This document shows positions 1,109 to 33,672 of a DNA stretch of 38,123 nucleotides, in pieces; positions within the stretch are counted from its first letter, which is position 1, and every line of letters starts with the position of its first letter. The DNA comes from a bacterium. GTDB taxonomy: Bacteria > Margulisbacteria > Marinamargulisbacteria > JAHFDA01. A program made the translations under genes and the position numbers. The stretch is from contig JAHFDA010000025.1 in assembly GCA_023249225.1 (NCBI GenBank), positions 1 through 38,123 on the forward strand. The letters run 5' to 3'. The notes beneath the pieces are model-generated. The model saw only the letters and a list, made by a program, of their open reading frames with translations. It was not told the origin of the DNA and did not search any database.

Positions 1109-3053
1109 AAATGAGAGTCGGCGGCTTGCGATTATTCGGGATGGGGCTCGCACCTATCTCCGGGGCATGGCGATGCATCTGGGCTGGGTGTCCCTGCTGG
1201 TCGGAGCCTTGCTTGCGATCTTCTCCCTGCCCGCCGTAGGAGCTGAAGTTTTGTGGCTGGGTCTGATTTTTGTGGCGGGCAGTGTGGTGAGTTCAACCCT
1301 GTCACTGACGGGCCAATACCTGGTGTTGCGGCTGACTGCCTATTTGCTTGCGCTGACGGACGAAGATCGCCTGGACGGTTTGCGTTACCGCAGTTTTGCT
1401 TTCAGTGTTATTTTTGGAGTGCTGTATGTGCTGCTAAGCGGACTCATGGCTTACGGTGTGTACCAATATCTGGGGCTTTTGTATTTGCTGTGTTATATCA
1501 GCGGGGCCTGTTTTGCCAGTTTGTTTATACGCGTGGCGGGCGGTGTATTTACCAATGCAGCCGACATGGGCGATTCACTGGTGCAACGTTTGTCCGAGCA
1601 GCCGGTACTCGACGATAGCAATGTGGCCCGTGTACTCAATCAGTTTGGCGAACACGTCAGCGATATTGGTGGTTTTGCACACGATGCGGTGACTTCTTTA
1701 TACGTGGTGATGCTGGCTGGGGTCTTGCTGATGACTGGGGCCGATGCCGAGTCCATGCCAGAACTGTCCTTTAAGTTGATTGGTGATTTGTCATGGATCA
1801 TTCCCGGCCTAGGTATTTTTAGCAGCGTGTTGGGGGGACTGCTGGGCTACGTGCTGATCTGGCGAAACCGTGACAGCAACCTGCTCATGAACAGCTTATA
1901 CATGACATTGATATCAGGTGCTGGCGCGGTAGCCTTGATCTACCGCCCGGGTTTGCTGCTGGGGTCTAATTTTGTAAACCATGGCTTTAGTGAACATTAT
2001 TTTGTGCCGCTTCTGGTGGCTTTGGGTGTCTTGGGATGTGGTCTCATTGGAGTAGGTTGCGAATGGTATACCAGCACAAATTTTAGACCGCTGCGCAGTG
2101 TGCTGGAGTGGGCTCAAAAAGGACCAGCATTGACCATCCTGGCCGGTTTCATGGTGGGCTTACGGAGTACATTTTTCATGGTGCTGGTGTTTGTGGCTGT
2201 GTATCTTTTAAGTTATTGGCTCGGGGGTTATTACGGTTTTTTTGTGGCGGCCCTGGGTTTGGCCCTGCCGCTGGCCATGATTGTGGCCTTAAACGCTTAT
2301 GGTGCCCTGACGCATTTTTTGCATGATCTGGCGGCGCTGAACCCGCAACTCGAAAAACGTTTGCGTGTGATCAGCCGCATGGACATGCTGACTTACACCA
2401 CCACGGCCGTTGGAAAGGGATTTTTGGGCGGGCTGACATTTTTTACGTCGTTGGCGCTTTTTCATGCGGCCATGGCTTACCTAAACGTTCCAAACGTGCA
2501 GGTCTTTGATGTGGCGTTTATGACGGGCGTTTTCTTGGGTGCGGCCATGCCGTATGCTTTTTCAGCGCTCTTGCTGCCCGGTATGCTCAAGGCCGTGGGT
2601 GGGGTGATCGACGAAAGTTTCAGGCAATTGCGCGACATACCTTACCTTAAAGAAGCCAAAGCCAATCCAGATGTGATCAAGGCCACGCGCTACACACTGC
2701 GCAGCGCTTTGCAATCGATTGTCGGACCGGGCCTCCTGGTGCTGGGTATGCCGCTTTTGGTAGGCTGGATTTTTGATTTTACGGGCTTGACCGGTCTCAT
2801 GATTGGCGCGCTGATTTCAAGTTTCTTTTTTGCCTTTCAATATGGCAACACCGGTGGCGCGCTGGGCAACGTCAAGCACTATGTTGAAAAGGGTTACCAC
2901 GGAGGGCCGGGCACGCCTACGCATCGCGCCACATTGGTGGCCGACACCTTTGGCGATGCGCTCAAGGATTCTTTGGGGCCGGCCATGAACGTCATGGTAA
3001 AGTTGTTGGTGCTGTGTTCCCTGCTGACTGGAATCTTTATGCTCGGAGGTTGA
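1101..3053 (+). CDS. Degenerate membrane pyrophosphatase paralogue (HppA-like)
   Basis: A 650-residue polytopic membrane protein homologous along its length to the canonical HppA encoded at 5314-7503, but with the active site eroded. Around residues 145-195 it keeps the RVAGGVFTNAADMG frame, yet the acidic run [12 protein letters not shown] of the active enzyme reads NQFGEHVSDIGG. Near residue 397 it has NAYGALTHFLHD where the active copy has [12 protein letters not shown]. Near residue 584 it has GGALGNVKHY instead of [10 protein letters not shown]. Several Asp/Asn residues that bind Mg-PPi are lost, so it probably does not hydrolyse PPi as the normal enzyme does. The start is the ATG at 1101, overlapping pyrK by 8 nt. 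A regulatory or altered transport role is inference only. Confidence 0.85.
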   Translation: MLENESRRLAIIRDGARTYLRGMAMHLGWVSLLVGALLAIFSLPAVGAEVLWLGLIFVAGSVVSSTLSLTGQYLVLRLTAYLLALTDEDRLDGLRYRSFAFSVIFGVLYVLLSGLMAYGVYQYLGLLYLLCYISGACFASLFIRVAGGVFTNAADMGDSLVQRLSEQPVLDDSNVARVLNQFGEHVSDIGGFAHDAVTSLYVVMLAGVLLMTGADAESMPELSFKLIGDLSWIIPGLGIFSSVLGGLLGYVLIWRNRDSNLLMNSLYMTLISGAGAVALIYRPGLLLGSNFVNHGFSEHYFVPLLVALGVLGCGLIGVGCEWYTSTNFRPLRSVLEWAQKGPALTILAGFMVGLRSTFFMVLVFVAVYLLSYWLGGYYGFFVAALGLALPLAMIVALNAYGALTHFLHDLAALNPQLEKRLRVISRMDMLTYTTTAVGKGFLGGLTFFTSLALFHAAMAYLNVPNVQVFDVAFMTGVFLGAAMPYAFSALLLPGMLKAVGGVIDESFRQLRDIPYLKEAKANPDVIKATRYTLRSALQSIVGPGLLVLGMPLLVGWIFDFTGLTGLMIGALISSFFFAFQYGNTGGALGNVKHYVEKGYHGGPGTPTHRATLVADTFGDALKDSLGPAMNVMVKLLVLCSLLTGIFMLGG

Positions 3054-3054
3054 T

Positions 3055-3840
3055 GTGGCACGTAAATCCTTGATTGCCGGTAATTGGAAGATGAACGGTA
3101 CGCGTCAAAGCGCGTCAGATTTGATTGCAGCCCTTAAGGTTCTCAATTGGGAAACGCAGGTTTTAGAGGTGGCTGTGTTTCCGCCCTTTCATTTGTTGTC
3201 GCTGGCGCTTGCAGCCGTGAGCCCGGCTCTGATTGCAGTGGGGGCCCAGGATGTATCGGCGCAGAAACCAGGCGCATTTACCGGCGAAGTGGCGGCCGAG
3301 TTCCTGGTAGATGTCGGCTGCCAATATGCGCTTGTGGGTCACTCGGAACGCCGTCAGTATCACCGCGAGGATGATGCCTTGGTGGCGGCCAAATTACGCC
3401 GTTTGCTCGAAGTAGGGCTTAAACCAGTGGTATGTGTGGGCGAACTGTTGGCCGAGCGTGAACAGGGTCAGACCTTTGACGTGGTGGCCCGGCAGTTGTC
3501 CGGCGCCCTGGGTGGACTCAATGCCGAGCAGATGGGTAACGTGGCACTGGCTTACGAACCGGTCTGGGCCATTGGCACCGGCAAGGTGGCCAGCCCGGCG
3601 CAGGCTCAAGAAGTGCATGCTTTTATTCGTCAGTGCCTGATGCAGCAGTGGAACAAATCTGTGGCTGATGGCCTGCAGGTGCTATACGGCGGCAGCGTCA
3701 ATGCGGCCAACGCCAAGGATCTGTTGGCACAAAAAGACATCGACGGCGCTCTGGTGGGCGGAGCTTCCTTAAAAGCGCAGGAATTTGCGGGCATTATCGC
3801 GGCGGGCATGGCTGTGGCCACTGCGGGTGTGCGTGTCTAG
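3055..3840 (+). CDS. tpiA: Triosephosphate isomerase
   Basis: A 261-residue cytosolic TIM-barrel enzyme interconverting dihydroxyacetone phosphate and glyceraldehyde 3-phosphate. Catalytic residues are all present: Lys12 in GNWKMNG, His96 in VGHSERR and Glu168 in AYEPVWAIGTGK; the phosphate-binding YGGSV motif and GGASLK loop follow. Length is normal for the family. The GTG start at 3055 lies one base after the stop of the previous gene. The stop overlaps the next GTG start by one base, so tpiA is in the middle of a tight operon. Confidence 0.97.
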   Translation: MARKSLIAGNWKMNGTRQSASDLIAALKVLNWETQVLEVAVFPPFHLLSLALAAVSPALIAVGAQDVSAQKPGAFTGEVAAEFLVDVGCQYALVGHSERRQYHREDDALVAAKLRRLLEVGLKPVVCVGELLAEREQGQTFDVVARQLSGALGGLNAEQMGNVALAYEPVWAIGTGKVASPAQAQEVHAFIRQCLMQQWNKSVADGLQVLYGGSVNAANAKDLLAQKDIDGALVGGASLKAQEFAGIIAAGMAVATAGVRV

Positions 3841-21207: not shown

Positions 21208-23853
21208 ATGAGTACGGGTTATTTTCGATATTGGGGCAAAGCTGATAGAGAAGATCCGTCTCAATTTCACCTATTGGTTTATCATAGTCTCGATGTCGCT
21301 GCGGTCGGGCGAGTGTTACTGGAAGGTCAGCCAAAACTGCTTAGAAATCTTTCCAATCAATCGGGTATTAGACCTGAGCGCTTAATCGATTGGATTACTT
21401 TTTTGCTTGCTCTCCATGACATTGGCAAGTTTGCAGACAGTTTTCAAAATCTTATTCCAGATCTATTTAATCAGCTTCAGGGTAGAGCTTTTGATACGGT
21501 ATATCGACAACGCCATGATACCTTGGGGTTTCGGTATCTTGATCAATATTTGATAAAAGCTATTTCACGTGAAGAATCGAGTGATTTACGGGATCTGCTT
21601 TTGCCTTGGCTGAATGCGGTTTGTGGCCATCATGGGCAACCTCCCAAAAATGATACGGATCCCAGGCCCTTAGGCAAAGATTTTCCAGCAATGATACTGA
21701 CCGATGCTAATAGTTTTGTAGCATTTGTTCGGGATAAATTTTTACCCGATGGTTTTCCGTTTGGCGTCGAAGAGTATCGTTTGTTTTGCGATCGCTTTCC
21801 GCGAATTTCATGGTTAGTCGCCGGGTTGGCGGTGGCTTCTGATTGGATTGGATCAAATAGCAGTTGGTTCCGATATTGTAAGGATCAACAAGATCTAAAT
21901 AGTTATTGGCAAACCAAGGCCTTACCTAACGCATTAACGGCTGTTAATAAAAGCGGTTTTATTCCTGTCGTGGCACAAGAATATTTAAGTTATCGACGTA
22001 TCTTTCCGGGCATTGCCCAGCTTACCCCGTTACAAGAACATTCCGAAAATTTGAAAATAACGGATACCCCTGGCTTGTTCATTTTGGAAGAGGTGACGGG
22101 TGGCGGAAAGACGGAAGCGGCCTTCATATTAGCCCAGCGCCTAATGGCAAAGGGTTTGGCAGATGGAATCTTTATGGCCCTGCCTACCATGGCGACCGCA
22201 AATGCAATGTATAAGAGAGTTCGTGCTATTTATAAAAAATTATTTCAAGACGATGCCGATCCATCGTTAGTTCTGGCCCATAGTTCGGGGCCCATGGTTT
22301 TAAAAATGGAGAAAAATACCCGACTAGATCATGGTTATGGAGGCGATGAAAGTAGTGCTACACAGGATTGCGCGGCATGGTTTTCGGACAATAGAAAAAA
22401 AGCCCTACTGGCGCATGTAGGTGTAGGTACTATTGATCAGGCTTTGCTTAGCATCCTGCCGGTTAGACACCAATCCTTGCGCTTACTTGGTTTATACGGA
22501 AAGGTTCTTGTGGTTGACGAGGTGCATGCCAACGATGATTATGTGCACAAGCTGCTGTGTTCACTATTAAAGTTTCATGCATCGTTTGGGGGCAGTGCCA
22601 TTTTGCTCTCGGCTACGCTTCCACAACAAATGCGCAAGGAATTGCTAAAGGCCTATGCCGAAGGCCGGCGATTACCAGCCCCTGAAGTGATGGAAGTTAA
22701 GTATCCCTTGCTTACATATTATTCCGAAGGTCAAATTTGCGAGCATGCAGTTGCAGCGCGGCGAGAGATGTCTCGTGAGGTGCGAGTAAATCTGATTTAT
22801 ACAGAGCAGCAAGTATATGATGCTATTCAGGCTGCCTTGAATAAAGGGCACTGCGTTTGCTGGGTTCGCAACACGATTGTCGATGCGCTGCAGGCATATC
22901 GCTATTGGCAAACTCGCATGGAACTTGAATTATTAACCTTATTTCACTCCCGCTTTGCATTAAGTGACCGCTTGGAAATTGAAAATAAGGTTTTGGATTA
23001 TTTTGGACCAGATAGCGCCAGTAACGTGCGAAAGGGCAGATTGCTAATTGCCACACAGGTGGCTGAACAGTCGTTAGACTTAGATTTTGATTTTATGGTC
23101 ACAGATCTTGCTCCGATTGATCTTGTTATTCAAAGGGCTGGTCGTTTGCAGCGCCATGCACGAGGCAATCGCACGCCAGTTTTGGCTGTCTATACGCCCA
23201 TGCCGGAGCCCGAAGCTAAATCAGACTGGTACAAAAAGCATTTTCCAAAGGCCGCCAGGGTGTATCCGCATCACGGGCAACTATGGCTAACTGCTCGGTG
23301 GTTATGCGAAAGAAGATCTTTTCGTATGCCCGAATATGCAAGGGATATGATCGAATTTGTGTTTTCCGAGTCGTCTTACAATGCGGTTCCGCCAGATCTT
23401 CAAATGACTGAAGATAAGTCGCAAGGGGCAGATCAGGGTAAAAAAAGTATGGCTCGTTTCAATAGTCTTGATTTGAATCAGGGGTATAAACAAACACTAA
23501 CCCATTGGCAGGATGACGCCTTTGCACCAACCCGTTTGGGAGAACCTACCGTAACGCTGCGTCTGGCGCGTTGGCAGGATAATCGCCTGGTGCCCTGGAT
23601 TGAAGTGCATGATGAGTATGGTTGGCAGCTTTCTCAACTGAGTGTTAGAAAATATTATGCAGCGGCAGAATATGTGGGTGAACATGCAGTGGCCTTTGAT
23701 GAGGCAAGGCGGAGTATGAGAGATCAGGGCAAATATGTGCTACTTGTGCCTTTGATCGAAAAGAATGGAATTTGGTGCGGGAGCGTTCTTAATTGCGAGG
23801 GTGCAGTGGTGGACGTTGTATACACCGTTAAGTTTGGTGCCGAGTTTGTATAA
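21208..23853 (+). CDS. cas3: CRISPR-associated helicase-nuclease Cas3 (type I-E)
   Basis: 881 residues, the effector nuclease recruited by target-bound Cascade. The N-terminal HD nuclease domain has YHSLDVAAVG (His near 26), ALHDIGKFADSF (HD near 70) and VCGHHGQPP. The SF2 helicase follows: Walker A EEVTGGGKTEAAF near residue 297, DEVH near 437, LLSATLP near 470, and motif VI VIQRAGRLQRHAR. The C-terminal domain is of the type I-E kind. It starts 20 nt after argG with no obvious promoter of its own, so read-through from argG is possible. Base composition is more AT-rich than the arg genes, consistent with transfer. Confidence 0.96.
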   Translation: MSTGYFRYWGKADREDPSQFHLLVYHSLDVAAVGRVLLEGQPKLLRNLSNQSGIRPERLIDWITFLLALHDIGKFADSFQNLIPDLFNQLQGRAFDTVYRQRHDTLGFRYLDQYLIKAISREESSDLRDLLLPWLNAVCGHHGQPPKNDTDPRPLGKDFPAMILTDANSFVAFVRDKFLPDGFPFGVEEYRLFCDRFPRISWLVAGLAVASDWIGSNSSWFRYCKDQQDLNSYWQTKALPNALTAVNKSGFIPVVAQEYLSYRRIFPGIAQLTPLQEHSENLKITDTPGLFILEEVTGGGKTEAAFILAQRLMAKGLADGIFMALPTMATANAMYKRVRAIYKKLFQDDADPSLVLAHSSGPMVLKMEKNTRLDHGYGGDESSATQDCAAWFSDNRKKALLAHVGVGTIDQALLSILPVRHQSLRLLGLYGKVLVVDEVHANDDYVHKLLCSLLKFHASFGGSAILLSATLPQQMRKELLKAYAEGRRLPAPEVMEVKYPLLTYYSEGQICEHAVAARREMSREVRVNLIYTEQQVYDAIQAALNKGHCVCWVRNTIVDALQAYRYWQTRMELELLTLFHSRFALSDRLEIENKVLDYFGPDSASNVRKGRLLIATQVAEQSLDLDFDFMVTDLAPIDLVIQRAGRLQRHARGNRTPVLAVYTPMPEPEAKSDWYKKHFPKAARVYPHHGQLWLTARWLCERRSFRMPEYARDMIEFVFSESSYNAVPPDLQMTEDKSQGADQGKKSMARFNSLDLNQGYKQTLTHWQDDAFAPTRLGEPTVTLRLARWQDNRLVPWIEVHDEYGWQLSQLSVRKYYAAAEYVGEHAVAFDEARRSMRDQGKYVLLVPLIEKNGIWCGSVLNCEGAVVDVVYTVKFGAEFV

Positions 23854-23868
23854 AATTAAAGGCAAATT

Positions 23869-23958
23869 GATGGAATCCCCACACCTGTGGGGAACAGGTT
23901 TTCGCCAAGCGATGTCAATAATCGCCACTCGGGACATCCCCATAATCATGGGGGACAT
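23869..23958 (-). ncRNA. Predicted crRNA-like regulatory RNA (CreR-like mini-array)
   Basis: On the minus strand two degenerate CRISPR repeats flank a 32-nt pseudo-spacer. Pseudo-repeat 1 (23930-23958) matches the array repeat at 20 of 29 positions and ends ATGTCCCG, 6 of 8 to the crRNA handle ATGAACCG. Pseudo-repeat 2 (23869-23897) matches 20 of its first 23 positions but has lost the handle, which would not be needed there. Both keep the Cas6e stem: CCCCAC/GTGGGG in repeat 2, and CCCCAT/ATGGGG in repeat 1, a compensated pair change. The repeat-to-repeat distance is 61 nt, identical to the array. The pseudo-spacer (23898-23929) targets the adjacent cas promoter. No third copy is seen. Confidence 0.8.
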
Positions 23959-23978: not shown

Positions 23979-24013
23979 TTCATAGAGTTAATTTATCATT
24001 AATCTCCACTCTT
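23979..24013 (-). promoter_or_regulatory. Predicted Cascade-binding site of the crRNA-like RNA
   Basis: On the minus strand the PAM AAG (24011-24013) is followed by AGTGGAGATTAATGATA. The pseudo-spacer begins AGTGGCGATTATTGACA. Positions 1-5, 7-11, 13-15 and 17 match. Mismatches up to 17 are at 6, 12 and 16; type I-E Cascade leaves every sixth base unpaired, so 6 and 12 should not matter. Beyond 17 there is almost no match, which fits binding without cleavage. The PAM overlaps the -35 box of the plus-strand promoter. Confidence 0.8.
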
Positions 24014-24018
24014 TACAA
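23990..24018 (-). promoter_or_regulatory. Possible promoter of the crRNA-like RNA
   Basis: On the minus strand TTGTAA (24013-24018) and TAAATT (23990-23995) are 17 nt apart, each 4 of 6 to consensus. Its -35 shares bases with the divergent Cascade promoter, and the Cascade site covers it, so the RNA would also repress itself. Confidence 0.4.
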
Positions 24019-24040
24019 ATTATTTGTTTGTAGTTATTAT
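24012..24040 (+). promoter_or_regulatory. Promoter of the Cascade operon (TTTACA-17-TATTAT)
   Basis: TTTACA (24012-24017, 5 of 6) and TATTAT (24035-24040, 5 of 6) are 17 nt apart. Transcription would start near 24047, about 5 nt before the small ORF at 24052. Its -35 overlaps the predicted Cascade site. Confidence 0.7.
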
Positions 24041-24051
24041 CCTACTACGTA

Positions 24052-24177
24052 ATGGTAGAAAGTTTACTTCTATTGATTAAAGATGCTGTATCGGCGGGTA
24101 ATCTTGCTCAACCTCAGGCCCTTGTAGCACTTGCGCTATTGGTAGCCTTGGTGGCTGTATTTAAGATTAAGGCTTGA
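24052..24177 (+). CDS. 41-residue hydrophobic membrane peptide, toxin-like
   Basis: A short gene between cas3 and cas8e. The product has an N-terminal helix (MVESLLLLIKDAV), a short polar turn (SAGNLAQPQ) and one transmembrane stretch (ALVALALLVALVAVF) ending in basic KIKA. It is the first gene behind the predicted Cascade promoter, and its TGA lies 6 nt before the cas8e ATG, so cas8e may depend on its translation. There is no Shine-Dalgarno; the expected transcript start is about 5 nt before the ATG. The size and layout recall small membrane toxins of type I toxin-antitoxin systems, but I recognise no family. Alternatives: a leader peptide for cas8e, or a chance ORF. Confidence 0.6.
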   Translation: MVESLLLLIKDAVSAGNLAQPQALVALALLVALVAVFKIKA

Positions 24178-24183
24178 TTATTT

Positions 24184-25734
24184 ATGAACCTGATTGACGA
24201 TCCTTGGATCCCGGCACGTCGCAAAAATGGAAATATTGAACGTATTGCGCCGTGGCAAATTGTTGAAGGTACGGGGGATAACGAGATTATCGAACTGGCT
24301 GCTCCGCGTCCCGATTTTAACGGTGCGCTGATTCAGTTTTTAATTGGCTTATTGCAAACAACGTATGCGCCGCATACACCCAAGGAGTGGCGTGACAAGT
24401 TGGAAAACCCACCATCCTCCCAAGAACTGAAATCTGCGTTTGCACCGGTTGTACATGCTTTTGAATTGGATAGCGATGGGCCACGGTTTATGCAGGATCT
24501 AACGATGGAGGTGAATTATGAGGATGCTAACCCTATTGGTAGTTTGTTTATTGAAGCTCCTGGAGAACAAACCCTAAAGCAGAATAAAGATCACTTTGTG
24601 AAGCGTGACCAAATTAACCAAATTTGTGAAGCATGTGCTGCTGCTGCGATTTATACCTTACAAATCAATGCACCCAGTGGTGGTGCTGGTCATCGTACGG
24701 GTTTGAGAGGTGGTGGACCACTGACGACCCTTATTAGGGGAGTTAATTTATGGCAACTTGTTTGGCTGAATGTTTTAGAAGAAAAAGATTTTCTGGCTAA
24801 AAGTGGTAACCACGAAAAAGATGCGTTTGAAGCAAAGTTTCCGTGGCTGGGAGCTACGCGTACGAGCGAAGGAGATAAGGAGACGACACCCGAGGATGTC
24901 CATCCGGTTCAAAATTATTGGGCAACTCCTAGGCGGATACGACTGTTATCTCCACTTGGCTCAGGTGTCTGTGATATATGCCTAAAACATCAACCACGTT
25001 TATATGATAAGTATGTTGCGCAGAACTATGGCGCTAATTACAAAGGGCCGTGGCAGCATCCATTGTCGCCTTATTTTATTGATTCTGATGGAAAGACTAG
25101 CGCAATCCATTTGCAACCTGGTGGTATGCGCTATAAGCATTGGCTAGGATGGATTTTGGATGGCGCTTTAAGTACGAAAGGGCAAAAAATATCGGCACGC
25201 GTTGTTTCGCGGTACCGGTATGATACGGAAAAAAAACAGACCGTCTGGGCCTTTGGTTATGACATGGATAACATGAAGGCGCGCTGTTGGTATGAGGGAA
25301 TCTTTCCATTAATTCATATTAATCCTGAAATGCTAGAGGAATATCGATATTTGGTTAAAATTCTTATTGAATCTGCCGAGCTTGCGGTTAAGGAAACCCG
25401 AGGGGCAGTTAAAAAAGCTTGGTTTCGTGAGGGTGTAGAAGTTAGGGGAGATATGTCGCGGGTTGATGTTTTTTTTTGGAACCAAACCGAAGCCAGGTTC
25501 TATGACGAATTAAAAAACTTGCGAGATAACTTAGAGTCCGGAAATAAAAATAATAAGCCGCTACTGGATCAATGGTCAAAATACTTACTCGATGTATCCT
25601 TATCCATATTTGATGATTTATCCCAAACCGGTTCCTTTGATGCAGTAGACCCGGCCCGTATTGCCAAGGCCATGAATAGTTTGGAGAGAAATTTGAGAAG
25701 CAAAAAATTTCGTGCGATTTTGGATCTATCATGA
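24184..25734 (+). CDS. cas8e: Cascade large subunit Cas8e (Cse1/CasA)
   Basis: 516 residues, the PAM-reading large subunit of type I-E Cascade. The start MNLIDDPWIPARR and the ELAAPRPDFNGALIQFLIGLLQT block are diagnostic of Cse1. The middle region has PSGGAGHRTGLRGGGPLTTL, the loop that contacts the PAM area in this family. The C-terminal four-helix bundle follows. The ATG comes 6 nt after the stop of the small membrane-peptide gene. The last 4 nt overlap the next gene (ATGA). Codon use is AT-rich, like the rest of cas3-cas6e. Confidence 0.95.
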   Translation: MNLIDDPWIPARRKNGNIERIAPWQIVEGTGDNEIIELAAPRPDFNGALIQFLIGLLQTTYAPHTPKEWRDKLENPPSSQELKSAFAPVVHAFELDSDGPRFMQDLTMEVNYEDANPIGSLFIEAPGEQTLKQNKDHFVKRDQINQICEACAAAAIYTLQINAPSGGAGHRTGLRGGGPLTTLIRGVNLWQLVWLNVLEEKDFLAKSGNHEKDAFEAKFPWLGATRTSEGDKETTPEDVHPVQNYWATPRRIRLLSPLGSGVCDICLKHQPRLYDKYVAQNYGANYKGPWQHPLSPYFIDSDGKTSAIHLQPGGMRYKHWLGWILDGALSTKGQKISARVVSRYRYDTEKKQTVWAFGYDMDNMKARCWYEGIFPLIHINPEMLEEYRYLVKILIESAELAVKETRGAVKKAWFREGVEVRGDMSRVDVFFWNQTEARFYDELKNLRDNLESGNKNNKPLLDQWSKYLLDVSLSIFDDLSQTGSFDAVDPARIAKAMNSLERNLRSKKFRAILDLS

Positions 25735-27125
25735 AATCTCCTAGCCGAAAAGAAAATCAAAATCTGGAATGGAAAGAGATTTGGCGGGACGAGTATCTTA
25801 AATGGGTTTGTGGTTTTGCCAATGCCGAGGGTGGCACGCTGATTATAGGTAAAAATGATAAAGGCCTAACGGTTGGAATAGAAAATGCCAAGGAACTTTT
25901 GGAGCTTTTGCCGAATAAAACCCGCGATCTGCTTGGTATTTTGGTTGATGTCAATCTTCGCAGGTCGAACGCTAAGGAATCCGTTGAAATCGTGGTCTCT
26001 GCATACCCTAACCCGATCAGCTACCGGGGTGAGTACTATTACCGCAGCGGTAGTACCAATCAGGCCCTAAGAGGATCCGCCTTGGATCGGTTTTTGTTAC
26101 GCAAACAGGGCAGGCACTGGGATGATGTCCCCATGCCTTCTTTTAAGCCGCAGCATTGTAGTGCAAATGCTTTAAAACTTTTTAAACAAAAAGCCAAGCA
26201 AAGCGGGCGCATGTCTGATGCTGTGCTAAAAGACGGTCGTGAGTTTCTGTTTGAAAATTTGGAACTAGTCGATACCCATGGGCTAAGGCGGGCTGCTTGC
26301 CTGCTTTTTTCTGATCATCCTCAAAAATATTTTGCTGGTTCATGGATCAAGATTGGATACTTTGCTTCTAACGATGACCTACGTTATCAAGATGAGGTAA
26401 ATGGAAATTTGTTTGAGCAGATCGAAAAGGCTATGGATCTACTGCAAACCAAATATTTAAAAGCCTACATCACCTACCAAGGCATACAGCGAGTCGAAAA
26501 CTTTCTCTACCCATCAGATGCTTTGCGCGAGGCCTTGATCAACGCTGTTGTCCACAAGGACTATGCCAGCGCAGTTCCCATACAGATTAGCGTATACGAA
26601 GATAAGATTTGCCTTTGGAACCCTGGGCAGCTTCCAGACGGCTGGACGATGAAGCGTTTTTTAGGCAAGCATCCTTCCAAGCCCCATAACCCGCTTCTGG
26701 CCAATACCTTTTTTAGAGCAGGTTATATAGAGGCTTGGGGGAGAGGTATTGATAAGATCAAAAAAGAGTGCCAGGAGCTTGGAATTCCGAAGCCAATGTA
26801 TGACTTTGAGATGTCGGGCCTGATGATTACCTTTAACGCGAACCCAGATCATATAAAGGCTGCCGGTTCACAGACTGCTGGGAGCGTAAAAACTTCGGTA
26901 GAAACGCGGGTAGAAACGCGGGCAAAAACGCCGGTGAAAATATTGCAATTGTTGCAAAGTCATCCAGAGATGACCTTGGCACAAGTCGCTGCAAATATTT
27001 CTAAATCACTTAGCGCAGTTGAGAGGGCCAGTTCAAAACTCGTCAAAGATGGCCAGCTAAAATATGTCGGCCCCCAAAAAGGCGGGCATTGGGAAGTCAG
27101 CAAAAAGGAGGTAAAGGATGTCTGA
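25731..27125 (+). CDS. AlbA_2/Schlafen-like ATPase with C-terminal winged helix, inside the cas operon
   Basis: 464 residues, not a known Cascade subunit. The N-terminal AlbA_2 domain (about 10-90) shows LEWKEIWRDEYLKWVCGFAN and GGTLIIGKNDKGLTVGI. A GHKL-type ATPase domain of the HATPase_c_4 kind follows (YPSDALREALINAVVHKDY; LWNPGQLPDG; WGRGIDKIKKEC). After a Thr/Val/Glu linker made of tandem repeats comes a winged-helix domain (MTLAQVAANISKSLSAVE). Such proteins are seen as DNA-binding regulators and in phage defence. It overlaps cas8e by 4 nt and cse2 by 8 nt, so it is an integral, co-translated part of the operon. Its function here is unknown. Confidence 0.9.
   Translation: MKSPSRKENQNLEWKEIWRDEYLKWVCGFANAEGGTLIIGKNDKGLTVGIENAKELLELLPNKTRDLLGILVDVNLRRSNAKESVEIVVSAYPNPISYRGEYYYRSGSTNQALRGSALDRFLLRKQGRHWDDVPMPSFKPQHCSANALKLFKQKAKQSGRMSDAVLKDGREFLFENLELVDTHGLRRAACLLFSDHPQKYFAGSWIKIGYFASNDDLRYQDEVNGNLFEQIEKAMDLLQTKYLKAYITYQGIQRVENFLYPSDALREALINAVVHKDYASAVPIQISVYEDKICLWNPGQLPDGWTMKRFLGKHPSKPHNPLLANTFFRAGYIEAWGRGIDKIKKECQELGIPKPMYDFEMSGLMITFNANPDHIKAAGSQTAGSVKTSVETRVETRAKTPVKILQLLQSHPEMTLAQVAANISKSLSAVERASSKLVKDGQLKYVGPQKGGHWEVSKKEVKDV
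26897..26932 (+). repeat. 12-bp tandem repeat in the AlbA_2 gene
   Basis: Two perfect copies of GGTAGAAACGCG and a third degenerate copy encode the VETR-VETR-AKTP linker before the winged helix. In-frame slippage here could change linker length. Confidence 0.8.
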
Positions 27126-27657
27126 AGCATCGAACAAAATGGCTCACATCATCAGCGAGTGGTGGAAGGAATGTATCGAGGATGAAAGGGACGAAGAGCC
27201 GGATCAAAAGGCGAGAAAAAATTGGAAGGGTGATAGTGCTGCTTTGAGACGAGCCAGGACACCCAATGAGGTTGTATTTGTTCCGGCCTATCATGATTTG
27301 TATCATAAATTAATTAATGCAGATGTTAACGTAGGGCGGGAGTCTATAGCGATTGTGGCGGGGATCTTATCCCATGTTAAGAAAAATTCTGGTACCGAGA
27401 ATGCCTTTCCTACCGAAATGGGATCTTCTAAGGAGGGAAGTAAAGATAAGGCCAAGGTCAGTAGTTTGCGGTTTAGGCGCTTGCTGGCAGAAAAAGATTC
27501 TCACAAAATGTATCCAATGATGATTCGCTTGATTCGTTTAATGAAGGGCCACGTTAATTTAGTTGATTTGGCCAATGATGTTTATTGGTGGAATGAAAAA
27601 ACCCGTAAAGATTGGGCATACGAATATTATGCGGCTGCCCCAAGTTCAGAAAAATAA
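27118..27657 (+). CDS. cse2: Cascade small subunit Cse2 (CasB)
   Basis: 179 residues, helical, the small subunit present as two copies in type I-E Cascade that holds the displaced strand. LRRARTPNEVVFVPAYHDL, SSLRFRRLLAEKDSHKMYPMM, RLIRLMKGHVNLVDLANDV and the final Trp-rich segment are typical. A strong Shine-Dalgarno (AAGGAGG) lies just before the ATG, inside the AlbA_2 gene. The stretch ENAFPTEMGSSKEGSKDKAK is a polar loop. Confidence 0.93.
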   Translation: MSEASNKMAHIISEWWKECIEDERDEEPDQKARKNWKGDSAALRRARTPNEVVFVPAYHDLYHKLINADVNVGRESIAIVAGILSHVKKNSGTENAFPTEMGSSKEGSKDKAKVSSLRFRRLLAEKDSHKMYPMMIRLIRLMKGHVNLVDLANDVYWWNEKTRKDWAYEYYAAAPSSEK

Positions 27658-27671
27658 AAAGGAGTAATGTT

Positions 27672-28865
27672 ATGACAAAATTTATTCAATTGCATTTGCT
27701 GACCAGTTATCCACCTTCCAATTTGAATCGTGATGATTTGGGTCGACCCAAGACGGCTGTTATGGGCGGGGTTCAACGGCTACGGATATCCTCCCAGAGT
27801 TTAAAACGGGCGTGGCGGACTTCTGATTTATTTCTTGATAGCTTGGTCGGGCATGCAGGGATTCGGACACGTCGCATTGGGCAAGCTATCAAAAAGTCTC
27901 TGATGTCAGGTGTGGATCTGTCTGAAATTCTACGCAATCCCGAAAAAGAGTATGGAAGTGGATCCGGAATACCCGAAAAAGATGCAACGCAGTGGGCATG
28001 GCAGATGGCAGCAGTATTTTCTGATAAATCTGCTAAGGCAGAGGACGAAGAAATTATAGAGGAGGAAGCTGAAGAAAAGTCTAATAAGAAGGGCAAAAAG
28101 GATAAAAAATCCAAAAGTAATGTTGATAAGGATACTTTGGCAGGGGAAGTGCTGGTGTTTTACAGCCCCGAAGAAATCAAAGCATGCGAAAGCTTGGTAT
28201 TAACTTTAATTAAGGAAAAAAGGCCGTCCAAAGATACAGAAATTAAGTCTTTGCCTAATAAGACTGTTTCGGGTGCGGATCTAGGATTATTTGGTCGTAT
28301 GTTGGCGAGTAACCCTAAATTTAATGTTGAGGCGGCCTGCCAAGTTGCCCATGCGATCACTGTTCACAAAGTTGCTGTTGAAGATGATTACTTTACAGCT
28401 GTTGATGATCTTAACAAGCAAGAAGAAGATGCGGGTGCAGGGCATATTGGTGAGACCGAATTTGCGGCTGGTCTGTTTTATCTTTATGTCTGTGTTGATA
28501 GCGATCTTTTGGTTAAAAATCTGTCTGGTAATAAAGAACTCGCTCAAAAAACGATTCGTGCCCTGGTCGAATGTATGGCTACGATTGCCCCAACCGGAAA
28601 ACAAAATAGTTTTGCGTCGCGTGCCTATGCATCCTATGTTCTTGCAGAAAAGGGTAATAAACAGCCACGCTCCTTGTCGGTTGCCTTTCTAACGCCGATA
28701 GATGATAAAAAAGATTTATTGGATACGGCCATCGGTCAGCTTGAGGCTACACGCGATAAAATGGATGCGGTTTACGGAAAGGTTGCAGAAGAGTCTCAAG
28801 AACTCAATGCAAAATCGGGTAAAGGTACGTTGGCTGACCTGATAAAGTTTGTGGCGAGTTTCTAA
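27672..28865 (+). CDS. cas7e: Cascade backbone subunit Cas7e (Cse4/CasC)
   Basis: 397 residues, the six-fold RNA-binding backbone of Cascade. The start is the ATG at 27672 behind AAGGAG, giving the conserved MTKFIQLHLLTSYPPSNLNR. QRLRISSQSLKRAWR (crRNA contacts) and GADLGLFGRM follow. It is longer than E. coli CasC (363 aa): residues about 119-153 hold a charged insertion, first acidic (EDEEIIEEEAEE) then basic (KKGKKDKKSKS). The last residues (TLADLIKFVASF) are normal. Confidence 0.94.
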   Translation: MTKFIQLHLLTSYPPSNLNRDDLGRPKTAVMGGVQRLRISSQSLKRAWRTSDLFLDSLVGHAGIRTRRIGQAIKKSLMSGVDLSEILRNPEKEYGSGSGIPEKDATQWAWQMAAVFSDKSAKAEDEEIIEEEAEEKSNKKGKKDKKSKSNVDKDTLAGEVLVFYSPEEIKACESLVLTLIKEKRPSKDTEIKSLPNKTVSGADLGLFGRMLASNPKFNVEAACQVAHAITVHKVAVEDDYFTAVDDLNKQEEDAGAGHIGETEFAAGLFYLYVCVDSDLLVKNLSGNKELAQKTIRALVECMATIAPTGKQNSFASRAYASYVLAEKGNKQPRSLSVAFLTPIDDKKDLLDTAIGQLEATRDKMDAVYGKVAEESQELNAKSGKGTLADLIKFVASF

Positions 28866-28880
28866 AAGGATCTGATCATT

Positions 28881-29618
28881 ATGATTGAGTATCTTGTTTT
28901 TCGGCTATATGGGCCCATGGCTGCTTGGGGTGACATTGCAGTGGGAGAGGTAAGGCCTACGTTTATGCACCCTTCCAAATCAGCGATTATGGGATTGATA
29001 GCGGCTGCGCTTGGCATCGATCGCACGGATGATGAGAAACATAGGGCTTTGGTAGAGAATTATGGTTTTGCTGTGCAAGTTAACAGTGTGGGTACGCCCT
29101 TAACCGATTACCATACAGTGCAAGTACCTTCATCAGGTACTGGGCGTAACAGACAAATCTTTACTACACGTAGAGACGAAATATTATCGGGACCCAGACA
29201 GGATCTTAATACCATATTGTCACGGCGAGATTACCGTATGGATGCGTCTGCCATCATTGTTATTTGGATGAAAGTTCCCTCGTTCTATACATTGACGGAT
29301 TTTCAAAAAGCCTTGTGTGAGCCCCACTATGTACTTTATTTGGGACGTAAATCTTGCCCGCTTTCACTGCCGATTCAGGCTCAAGTAGTAGCTGCTGATT
29401 CAGTGCGGGATGCTATCAATGTTGCAAAATTTTCACCCTTAGATTTACCACACACCGATAGTCCGGCTTTGTTTTGGGAGGAGGGAGCAGTTAGCGGACT
29501 AAAAGAGCAAAACACCTTTGTGAGAAGGGATGTCACTCTATCCCGCAAGCGCTGGCAATTTGATGTTCGCAACGAACATCACAGTGCAATTTCCAAGGAG
29601 GATAACCATGTATCTTAG
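28881..29618 (+). CDS. cas5e: Cascade subunit Cas5e (CasD)
   Basis: 245 residues. This RAMP subunit caps the 5-prime handle of the crRNA. The N-terminus YLVFRLYGPMAAWGD and RPTFMHPSKSAIMGLIAAA are the Cas5e signature, as are SRRDYRMDA and YLGRKSCPLS. It overlaps cas6e by 11 nt. The ATG at 28881 is preceded by AAAAGGA about 10 nt away. Confidence 0.94.
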   Translation: MIEYLVFRLYGPMAAWGDIAVGEVRPTFMHPSKSAIMGLIAAALGIDRTDDEKHRALVENYGFAVQVNSVGTPLTDYHTVQVPSSGTGRNRQIFTTRRDEILSGPRQDLNTILSRRDYRMDASAIIVIWMKVPSFYTLTDFQKALCEPHYVLYLGRKSCPLSLPIQAQVVAADSVRDAINVAKFSPLDLPHTDSPALFWEEGAVSGLKEQNTFVRRDVTLSRKRWQFDVRNEHHSAISKEDNHVS

Positions 29619-30288
29619 TCGGATTAAACTACGAGACGGGACTGATAGAAACAACGATTTTTATAAGGTGTTTGAAAATCAGTATAAAATCCACCAATCT
29701 TTGTGGCAGCTGTTTGCTGATCGCTCGGATCGCAAAAGGGATTTTTTATATCGGGCTGATCAAACCGAAGGTAAACCATTTTTTTATGTTGTGTCGGAAC
29801 GTAGACCATTGGAAGATTCACCAATTTGGCATGTGGAATCAAAAAACTATCAGCCGCAGATAGCTAAGGGTACAAGGTTAAATTTTATGCTTCGAGCCAA
29901 CCCGACGGTAAAGAAGTTTAAAGAAGGCTCAAAGAATGGTTTTAGATGTGATGTCGTAATGGATGCTAAGTGTCGTCTTAGAGAAAACACATCTGAAAAT
30001 CGAGATTTGCCGGTGTCGGAATTGGTTCAAGTCGAAAGTGAAAAATGGCTAAAGTCTAAAGAAGTTTCAAATGGCTTTAGACTTGATTTTGTTAAAGCGG
30101 ATGCTTACAACCAAATGCGATTTTATAAATCGAGTAGGGGTAACCCCATTCGTTTTAGTACGGTTGATTTTGAAGGTGTTTTTTCAGTTACTGAACCGGA
30201 TGTTTTTATTCCTAAGGCGTTGTTTGGAGGTATTGGGTCTGAAAAAGGATTTGGTTGTGGCCTGATCTTAGTAAAGCTCATTCGTTAA
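29608..30288 (+). CDS. cas6e: crRNA-processing endoribonuclease Cas6e (CasE)
   Basis: 226 residues, which cuts the repeat hairpin to make crRNAs and stays on the 3-prime end. The start at 29608 (after AAGGAGG) gives MYLSRIKLR; His29 in YKIHQSLWQLF matches the catalytic His region of the family. The C-terminal glycine-rich loop GGIGSEKGFGCGLIL is diagnostic. It should process both the array and, if the stem is recognised, the crRNA-like RNA at 23869-23958. It ends the AT-rich Cascade part of the locus. Confidence 0.94.
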   Translation: MYLSRIKLRDGTDRNNDFYKVFENQYKIHQSLWQLFADRSDRKRDFLYRADQTEGKPFFYVVSERRPLEDSPIWHVESKNYQPQIAKGTRLNFMLRANPTVKKFKEGSKNGFRCDVVMDAKCRLRENTSENRDLPVSELVQVESEKWLKSKEVSNGFRLDFVKADAYNQMRFYKSSRGNPIRFSTVDFEGVFSVTEPDVFIPKALFGGIGSEKGFGCGLILVKLIR

Positions 30289-30347
30289 TTTCTTATGACT
30301 TCGACCGCAAAATTAAAAAACTGATCCCTAAATCAAAAAAGTAAACT

Positions 30348-31596
<1,249 letters not shown>

Positions 31597-31647: not shown

Positions 31648-33672
31648 CCGTTCCCCACGCGTGTGGGGATGAACCGCACTTTGGCGACGAAAAACACACA
31701 CGCGATATCCGTTCCCCACGCGTGTGGGGATGAACCGTCTGTAGTAAACGTGCGGCTGCCACGGGTTAGCCGTTCCCCACGCGTGTGGGGATGAACCGCC
31801 ACAGATACCGGGCGCTGGTAAATCTCCTTTCCGTTCCCCACGCGTGTGGGGATGAACCGAAAGGAGAAAATAAAATGTGTCCATTAAATAGCCGTTCCCC
31901 ACGCGTGTGGGGATGAACCGCTCCACGGGCCTTTAGTGTGGTGTGTGGTGTTCCGTTCCCCACGCGTGTGGGGATGAACCGTGGTCTTTTGCTAAAATTT
32001 TCATGTTATTCCCCCGTTCCCCACGCGTGTGGGGATGAACCGTCCGGTGATCTAAGTCACGCCTTACCTGACGACCGTTCCCCACGCGTGTGGGGATGAA
32101 CCGTAGAAAATATGTTTTATGTGGGGGCAACCCCTCCGTTCCCCACGCGTGTGGGGATGAACCGCAATTTAAACTCGACAACGGGCTGTATCTGTGCCGT
32201 TCCCCACGCGTGTGGGGATGAACCGTTTTTTACCTGCTTTCCTTGCGTGTTTAGTGTCCGTTCCCCACGCGTGTGGGGATGAACCGCAGCCTTAAATCAA
32301 TTCACGGGTACAGAAAATCCGTTCCCCACGCGTGTGGGGATGAACCTGAGCATTGGTTAGATGAGGATGCCATTAAGCAAGCCGTTCCCCACGCGTGTGG
32401 GGATGAACCGGCGAGGTGCCATTGCGTGGAGCGTAGCGAAACCCGTTCCCCACGCGTGTGGGGATGAACCGAATCTAACTAACTCGTTAGTGAATCTTAT
32501 CTACCGTTCCCCACGCGTGTGGGGATGAACCGCCGTTTGCCTCCATTTGCATGGCACAGAATACCCGTTCCCCACGCGTGTGGGGATGAACCGCCCGAGA
32601 AAATCGTCGTTGCTGTTTGGGGAATCCGTTCCCCACGCGTGTGGGGATGAACCGTGTTGCATTGCAACACTGTTGCGCTTCTAACCCCGTTCCCCACGCG
32701 TGTGGGGATGAACCGAAAATTTTTCTATCTGAGAGGAAAGGCGACCCCCGTTCCCCACGCGTGTGGGGATGAACCGGTCATGTTATTCACCTACCTTTAT
32801 TGTCACTTCCGTTCCCCACGCGTGTGGGGATGAACCGTAGGCAAATGATGGTCAATAAACGTAGTAAGGCCGTTCCCCACGCGTGTGGGGATGAACCGCC
32901 CAAAACGTACAACCTGTTTCACAGGTCACACCGTTCCCCACGCGTGTGGGGATGAACCGAAAGGAGAAAAAAAAATGAACACAAAAACCGACCGTTCCCC
33001 ACGCGTGTGGGGATGAACCGCCAACGAGTTTCTAACCAAGACCGGCACAACCCCGTTCCCCACGCGTGTGGGGATGAACCGGACAGTGTTATTTTTATCG
33101 CGAAATATCTAGGCCGTTCCCCACGCGTGTGGGGATGAACCGAGGCTGAATTCCCGCCGCCGCATGGCGGCGCACCGTTCCCCACGCGTGTGGGGATGAA
33201 CCGAAAAAGCGTTGGAGACGGCGCTAGAGTTAGCGCCGTTCCCCACGCGTGTGGGGATGAACCGCCTTGACCCTTCTACCCTTAGTGTTTGTTCCCCCGT
33301 TCCCCACGCGTGTGGGGATGAACCGGCACAAGATCAACACAAAATAATGCTGGACGCCCGTTCCCCACGCGTGTGGGGATGAACCGCGATTTACCCCCAT
33401 CAGGTCAGGTCGCCAAGCCCGTTCCCCACGCGTGTGGGGATGAACCGCGCGAGGAAACCGGCTTTATGTCGGGCCTGTGCCGTTCCCCACGCGTGTGGGG
33501 ATGAACCGATCGGCGGGAACCGTGCGTACCTGATCGACTGCCGTTCCCCACGCGTGTGGGGATGAACCGAAAACTGAAAAAATCATCGTAGATAGAGGCC
33601 ACCGTTCCCCACGCGTGTGGGGATGAACCGACGCAATTATGTAGCAGTAAATGCTATGCGCTCCGTTCCCCA
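31648..33672 (+). CRISPR. Type I-E CRISPR array: 33 full repeats, 33 spacers, truncated end repeat
   Basis: The 29-nt repeat reads CCGTTCCCCAC, loop GCGT, then GTGGGGATGAACCG, with a 6-bp stem. I counted 33 full copies and a final piece (CCGTTCCCCA, 33663-33672). The period is 61 nt throughout (32-nt spacers) except spacer 12 (32348-32381), which is 34 nt and follows the only variant full repeat I noticed (last base T instead of G). The leader is on the left next to cas2, so new spacers enter there and the array is transcribed on the plus strand. Full repeats are nearly perfect, indicating an active array. Plus- and minus-strand ORFs across it are artefacts of the repeat. Confidence 0.98.

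Follow-up and report, generated by a model that had tools for sequence, protein, structure and literature searches.

Analysis of a 38,123-nt contig of a marinamargulisbacterial genome (assembly GCA_023249225.1, contig JAHFDA010000025.1), hereafter called the window, revealed a gene of the Schlafen-like family (25731-27125, + strand) lodged inside the Cascade operon of a type I-E CRISPR-Cas locus, between cas8e and cse2. What is new is this placement of a known kind of defence accessory within a Cascade operon, to which a mini-CRISPR situated upstream of cas8e adds one element of the CreR type. The reading that we prefer, tentatively and as somewhat short of an even chance, sees in the gene an accessory of the Schlafen RNase family, acquired horizontally, which would be placed under Cascade's autorepression and would provide a backup layer of defence by abortive infection; the RNase activity, the trigger and the functional link with Cascade are the parts of it that we infer. 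The main rival explanation makes the gene a passenger, and a role as a regulator is a weaker one.

The type I-E locus is complete, and all its genes lie on the + strand: cas3 (21208-23853), cas8e (cse1/casA; 24184-25734), cse2 (cas11e; 27118-27657), cas7e (27672-28865), cas5e (28881-29618), cas6e (29602-30288), cas1e (30348-31259) and cas2e (31240-31596). The CRISPR array (31648-33631, +) has 33 repeats of CCGTTCCCCACGCGTGTGGGGATGAACCG; a search of the genome found no second array of this kind. Pfam, NCBIfam and PADLOC all recognize cas3 as well as the two genes flanking the insert, cas8e and cse2, which confirms the embedding in the Cascade operon. Composition changes within 29602-31596, from 39-46% GC for cas3 to cas6e (with 32% GC at third codon positions, GC3, in cas6e) to 56% for cas1e, a value close to that of the host arg genes; this break between cas6e and cas1e suggests that the interference and adaptation modules differ in origin. 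Within the array, one repeat-to-repeat period (at 32321-32410) measures 63 nt instead of the usual 61. Two spacers (31860-31880 and 32960-32980) begin closely alike, with AAAGGAGAAAA followed by AAAATG, and to judge from these letters they look as if derived from related ribosome-binding-site regions.

The Schlafen-like reading frame is intact: it starts with ATG and has 464 codons with zero internal stops. Its overlaps with the neighbouring genes are exactly as claimed in the original prediction, i.e. 4 nt with cas8e, in the form of an ATGA junction, and 8 nt with cse2. The translational coupling on both sides that had been deduced from them is at most suggested, and on one side only. The ATGA junction suggests coupling at the 5′ side, but cse2 has a strong Shine-Dalgarno sequence of its own (AGGAGGT, 27106-27112, +), located inside the 3′ end of the Schlafen-like gene, so that coupling is not required there. 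That the gene is a real insert follows from the spacing seen elsewhere: the distance between the ends of the cas8e and cse2 matches is 1387 nt here, as compared to 92-237 nt in the other I-E loci in which both could be aligned, and in the annotation of two plasmid operons the casA and casB reading frames share 4-11 nt. The gene thus splits two normally adjacent genes, as had been proposed. A further claim, that it shares the AT-rich composition of its neighbours, is correct for overall GC, since its 45.7% falls within the 38.6-45.7% range of cas3 to cas6, but not for GC3, which at 46.7% is above that of the cas genes (32-43%) and below that of the host arg genes (58-65%).

The predicted protein of 464 amino acids comprises an AlbA_2/SLFN-box domain, a central region, a GHKL ATP-binding domain and a winged helix. 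The three named domains are found in one chain both by Pfam and in a structure model, in agreement with the initial domain reading, and each Pfam match exceeds its curated cut-off: SLFN_AlbA_2 (PF04326; residues 8-113, 8.5e-12, 46.1 bits for a cut-off of 25.3), HATPase_c_4 (residues 283-368, 2.7e-21) and HTH_24 (residues 401-443, 2.3e-6). On the + strand of the window, the AlbA_2/SLFN-box domain corresponds to 25752-26069, HATPase_c_4 to 26577-26834 and the C-terminal winged helix (residues 394-459, MarR/Zalpha-like) to 26910-27107. The model, built from a 72-sequence alignment, is confident over the full chain (mean pLDDT 91.5) and also for the N-terminal domain folded alone (90.9). A bacterial structure of the same build, 3lmm, aligns with the full-chain model over 346 residues (Z 25) with an rmsd of 15.3, so that the relative arrangement of the domains differs. 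The structural match to GHKL ATP-binding domains, e.g. those of SpoIIAB and of histidine kinases, covers residues 202-377, in which E267, N271 and both glycines of G337-x-G339 are invariant across the 72 homologues; residues 394-464 match winged helices. The PADLOC model of prokaryotic Argonautes PDLC02394 also matches the protein (residues 19-381, 1.2e-19; window 25731-27122), which suggests that the same module may be fused to some of these Argonautes.

For the N-terminal domain, the top structural matches are two bacterial structures, followed by SAMD9 tRNase and DNA-binding structures (9o0d, Z 9.9; 7ksp, Z 9.8). The Schlafens SLFN14, SLFN13, SLFN5, SLFN11 and SLFN12 come at Z 6.3-9.2, the best entries of the first four reaching 9.1-9.2, and unrelated folds at about 5. 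Scores mostly between 8 and 10 for the SLFN and SAMD9 structures identify an SLFN-box fold, and the model groups the domain with tRNases of the Schlafen and SAMD9 kinds. Model residue 5 pairs structurally with residue 202 of SLFN13 and 206 of SLFN11. If this pairing continues ungapped, as the SLFN11 sequence alignment supports over the key stretch (ESQSIEFK with ENQNLEWK), then E8 and E13 are the equivalents of E205 and E210 in SLFN13 and of E209 and E214 in SLFN11. Mutation of either E205 or E210 abolishes the activity of SLFN13 (PMC5862951). The two glutamates are conserved in 70 (E8) and 71 (E13) of the 72 aligned sequences. At the position of the third carboxylate (D248 in SLFN13, D252 in SLFN11) the protein has N42; this column contains N in 41 sequences and D in 17 out of 72, and the adjacent D43, a possible substitute, is conserved in 68. 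As far as can be read from the sequence, N42 and the GC3 mismatch with the cas genes both count against our preferred reading.

The original prediction left the choice between a DNA-binding regulator and a second effector. The effector is the better option, because of the Schlafen/SAMD9-like N-terminal domain with both its key glutamates and of homologues found in restriction and BREX operons; the regulator is less supported. As a regulator, the protein would bind DNA through its winged helix near the cas promoter or the array, sense a ligand through the AlbA_2 and GHKL parts and tune cas transcription, with no cutting of RNA. The MarR-like fold of the winged helix and the ability of AlbA_2 to bind DNA, as in the SAMD9-DNA structure 7ksp, are compatible with such a role, and so is the older COG name, 'predicted transcriptional regulator'. 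We nevertheless judge it distinctly unlikely, given that the RNase glutamates are almost invariant, that no operator was identified and that the promoter already has a candidate repressor, guided by Cascade.

This candidate lies in the gap between cas3 and cas8e, which is 330 nt long here and 10-76 nt in two plasmid operons. On the - strand, two degenerate repeats, PsiR2 (23869-23897) and PsiR1 (23930-23958), enclose a 32-nt spacer (23898-23929), a predicted CreR-type guide. Each of them matches the array repeat at 20 of 29 positions, with the stem kept in PsiR2 and a C-G to T-A change that preserves pairing in PsiR1. No other sequence in 31.5 kb matches the array repeat as well as these two, and the distance between them, 61 nt, is exactly the period of the array. 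The predicted target of the guide (23979-24013, -) is flanked by an AAG PAM (CTT on the + strand, 24011-24013). AAG is the canonical PAM of type I-E systems, in which positions 6 and 12 of the guide are flipped out and not read by Cascade. Within the first 17 positions of the spacer, mismatches with the target (23979-24010) occur at positions 6, 12 and 16 only, so that 14 of the 15 read positions are matched. Not one of 20,000 shuffled spacers reached 13 read-position matches in the cas3-cas8e gap, and the runner-up among PAM-flanked sites for the guide in the 38 kb scores 10.

The PAM overlaps the -35 element of a promoter-like sequence, TTTACA-17-TATTAT (24012-24040, +), which is among the three best promoter scores of the region and the sole one of these three on the coding strand, promoter scans being weak evidence in general. 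With a CreR-type guide directed at the operon promoter, Cascade probably represses its own operon and, with it, the Schlafen-like gene, as the sequence would have it. A fixed rule, combining pairs of repeat-like hairpins 60-62 nt apart with a spacer match of at least 12 out of 15 at an AAG-flanked site, retrieved two loci only from 352 kb of I-E stretches, the window and one other (L122), and had no match in 867 kb of other loci taken as controls. The second locus (G259:C12), from another phylum, has an independent CreR-like element, upstream of cas8e as well, with a target at about 3017-3048 and a mini-CRISPR at about 3138-3227; the degenerate repeats again show the 61-nt distance, and the seed, matching at 14/15, adjoins AAG. 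CreR RNAs that autorepress cas operons have been reported for types I-B, I-E and V-A (PMC13131331; PMC12737573). About 12 nt after the -10 element starts a hydrophobic ORF of 41 aa (24052-24177, +), which has no Pfam match and ends 6 nt before cas8e. It could be a small membrane toxin, similar to CreT, or a leader peptide. This ORF and the Schlafen-like gene are the candidates for a CRISPR-repressed toxin at the locus.

Relatives of the Schlafen-like protein were obtained through an alignment-based search of the species collection, from which the best 80 of at least 465 were retained; a single-protein search of the genome contigs had given zero matches. Type I restriction genes adjoin about one-fifth of these 80, often in the order hsdS-relative-hsdR, and the plasmid-borne relatives in Aliarcobacter, Deinococcus and Synechococcus likewise adjoin such genes. 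The restriction-linked relatives commonly start with an ATGA shared with the upstream stop codon, as at the cas8e junction. They are scattered in the tree, where a single restriction-linked clade is not resolved, and the contexts of the homologues are diverse, most of them not being restriction operons. In the tree, the window's protein has as its sister (support 98/98) an orphan that is 63% identical to it and comes from a MAG of the Nitrosomonadales; the gene of this relative adjoins IS elements and an incomplete duplicate of itself. At that locus (L025; 2468-2776 and 3037-4419), the partial copy corresponds to the winged-helix end and lies just upstream, with transposase-like genes nearby. 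In its passages on BREX, one study describes a Schlafen RNase with a minimal histidine kinase and a wHTH as a backup suicidal RNase, present in at least 1017 taxa (PMC12839542). Linkage to BREX or restriction core genes is therefore seen in some homologues and not in the window copy, whose neighbours are cas genes. Because of these homologues, the family can be regarded as a known accessory embedded in defence operons, the Cascade setting being what is new.

Recurrent placement between cas8e and cse2, for which a survey had been suggested, was not observed. Family profiles were run against 79 stretches carrying about 70 other cas8e genes, cse2 being too divergent to align in many of them; the test was for a Schlafen match at most about 1.5 kb away from cas8e, and only the window gave one. 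I-E cas genes were beside none of the best 80 of at least 465 relatives (tblastn), and cas genes were near none of 35 relatives on viral contigs. In the same phylum sample one other genome has cas8e, and its cas8e-cse2 junction is without insert; a literature search found no paper joining Schlafen or AlbA_2 with type I-E. The survey covered mostly small phyla, with large ones such as Pseudomonadota probably entering it only via a few plasmid records, and the order may recur, rarely, in such thinly sampled phyla. Caution is called for above all because the arrangement was seen just once. Of the two observations named beforehand as speaking against the original prediction, a unique position and broken copies in close relatives, the first thus applies in the loci covered, and the copy seen here is intact.

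Given this lack of recurrence, chance insertion without a functional link is possible. A mobile Schlafen module, stand-alone or restriction-linked, would have landed at the cas8e/cse2 junction with no tie to CRISPR, and may defend on its own; it would persist because the operon still works, thanks to the ATGA at the start of the module and the Shine-Dalgarno of cse2 at its end. The uniqueness of the cas8e-Schlafen-cse2 order, the many and mostly not restriction-linked contexts of the homologues, the nearest of them being an orphan with IS elements and a truncated copy as neighbours, the deviating GC3 and the several further members of the family in the host genome all agree with such an origin. 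The intact reading frame, the preserved key residues and the ATGA junction with cas8e do not, and expression from a Cascade-regulated promoter follows from the position, whether selected or not. On balance we hold this explanation to be rather doubtful, while regarding it as a serious contender. Another possibility is that the protein is a subunit or nuclease partner of Cascade, binding Cas8e or Cse2 and used in target cleavage, as its gene is located exactly between those of the large and small subunits. This is highly improbable: Cas3 is present and complete, the protein has no Cas-type domain and the arrangement does not recur in about 70 other cas8e loci. We reject it because homologues occur without any cas gene.

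The mechanism that we favour may be sketched as follows. In the sequence, the Schlafen-like gene forms one gene run with Cascade, behind a single strong promoter-like site. A CreR-type crRNA from the mini-CRISPR (23869-23958) probably steers Cascade to this promoter, repressing the operon, and the Schlafen-like protein would be present at a low, Cascade-buffered level, with its GHKL/winged-helix part keeping it inactive. The operon would be derepressed on infection, especially when Cascade is lost, inhibited by an anti-CRISPR or titrated by crRNAs, so that Cascade and the Schlafen-like protein would rise together. Since the gene shares its presumed mRNA with Cascade, transcription alone cannot hold an active toxin off, and a post-translational trigger is assumed: a phage or nucleic-acid signal received by the GHKL/winged-helix part might free the SLFN-box, leading to tRNA cutting and growth stop. 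The protein would then be a backup (abortive-infection) layer and not a Cascade subunit. A more specific version, which we think unlikely, is that the disabling of Cascade, for example by an anti-CRISPR, derepresses the Schlafen tRNase, so that abortive infection takes over where adaptive immunity has failed. BREX and restriction systems are known to have Schlafen RNases as accessories, animals have them as antiviral tRNases, and CreR guides are known autoregulators of cas genes. Should our preferred reading be true, the locus would be a CRISPR system with its own backup effector, the expression of which is tied to the health of Cascade. Whether there are CRISPR-controlled toxins besides the KilA-N one was listed as open in a 2025 review (PMC12737573), and the locus bears on this question, shared Cascade-guided repression providing a specific and testable hypothesis for the Schlafen-like gene.

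Comparison with known systems helps to situate the locus. One close counterpart is the Schlafen-mHK-wHTH accessory of BREX and BREX-related loci, which by its description has the same three-part architecture, is embedded in another defence operon and is proposed to be a backup RNase, as here; the difference is the type I-E Cascade operon, the passages on this accessory in PMC12839542 naming no CRISPR setting. The AlbA_2 ATP-binding proteins of type I restriction operons (e.g. L023 from Synechococcus, L031 and L063), located between hsdS and hsdR, have the same domains, 45-56% identity to the window protein and a 5′ ATGA, but they come without cas genes and their C-terminal part varies between members. 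With the SLFN-box tRNases SLFN11, SLFN13 and SLFN14 of human or rat and SAMD9, the protein shares the N-terminal fold and the two catalytic-glutamate positions. However, the N-terminal domain of the animal SLFNs is a pseudo-dimer of two lobes, of which the window protein has one, and the C-terminal parts differ. The mini-CRISPR resembles CreR (PMC13131331) in its degenerate repeats and in a spacer that partly matches the cas promoter beside a PAM; unlike in the CreR cases, the operon also contains the Schlafen-like gene and the 41-aa hydrophobic ORF. Finally, in CrePA, where the repressed toxin is a KilA-N protein (PMC12737573), a Cascade-guided RNA likewise controls a possibly growth-stopping protein. 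Here the protein is a different one, and the candidate toxin and Cascade itself have one promoter in common.
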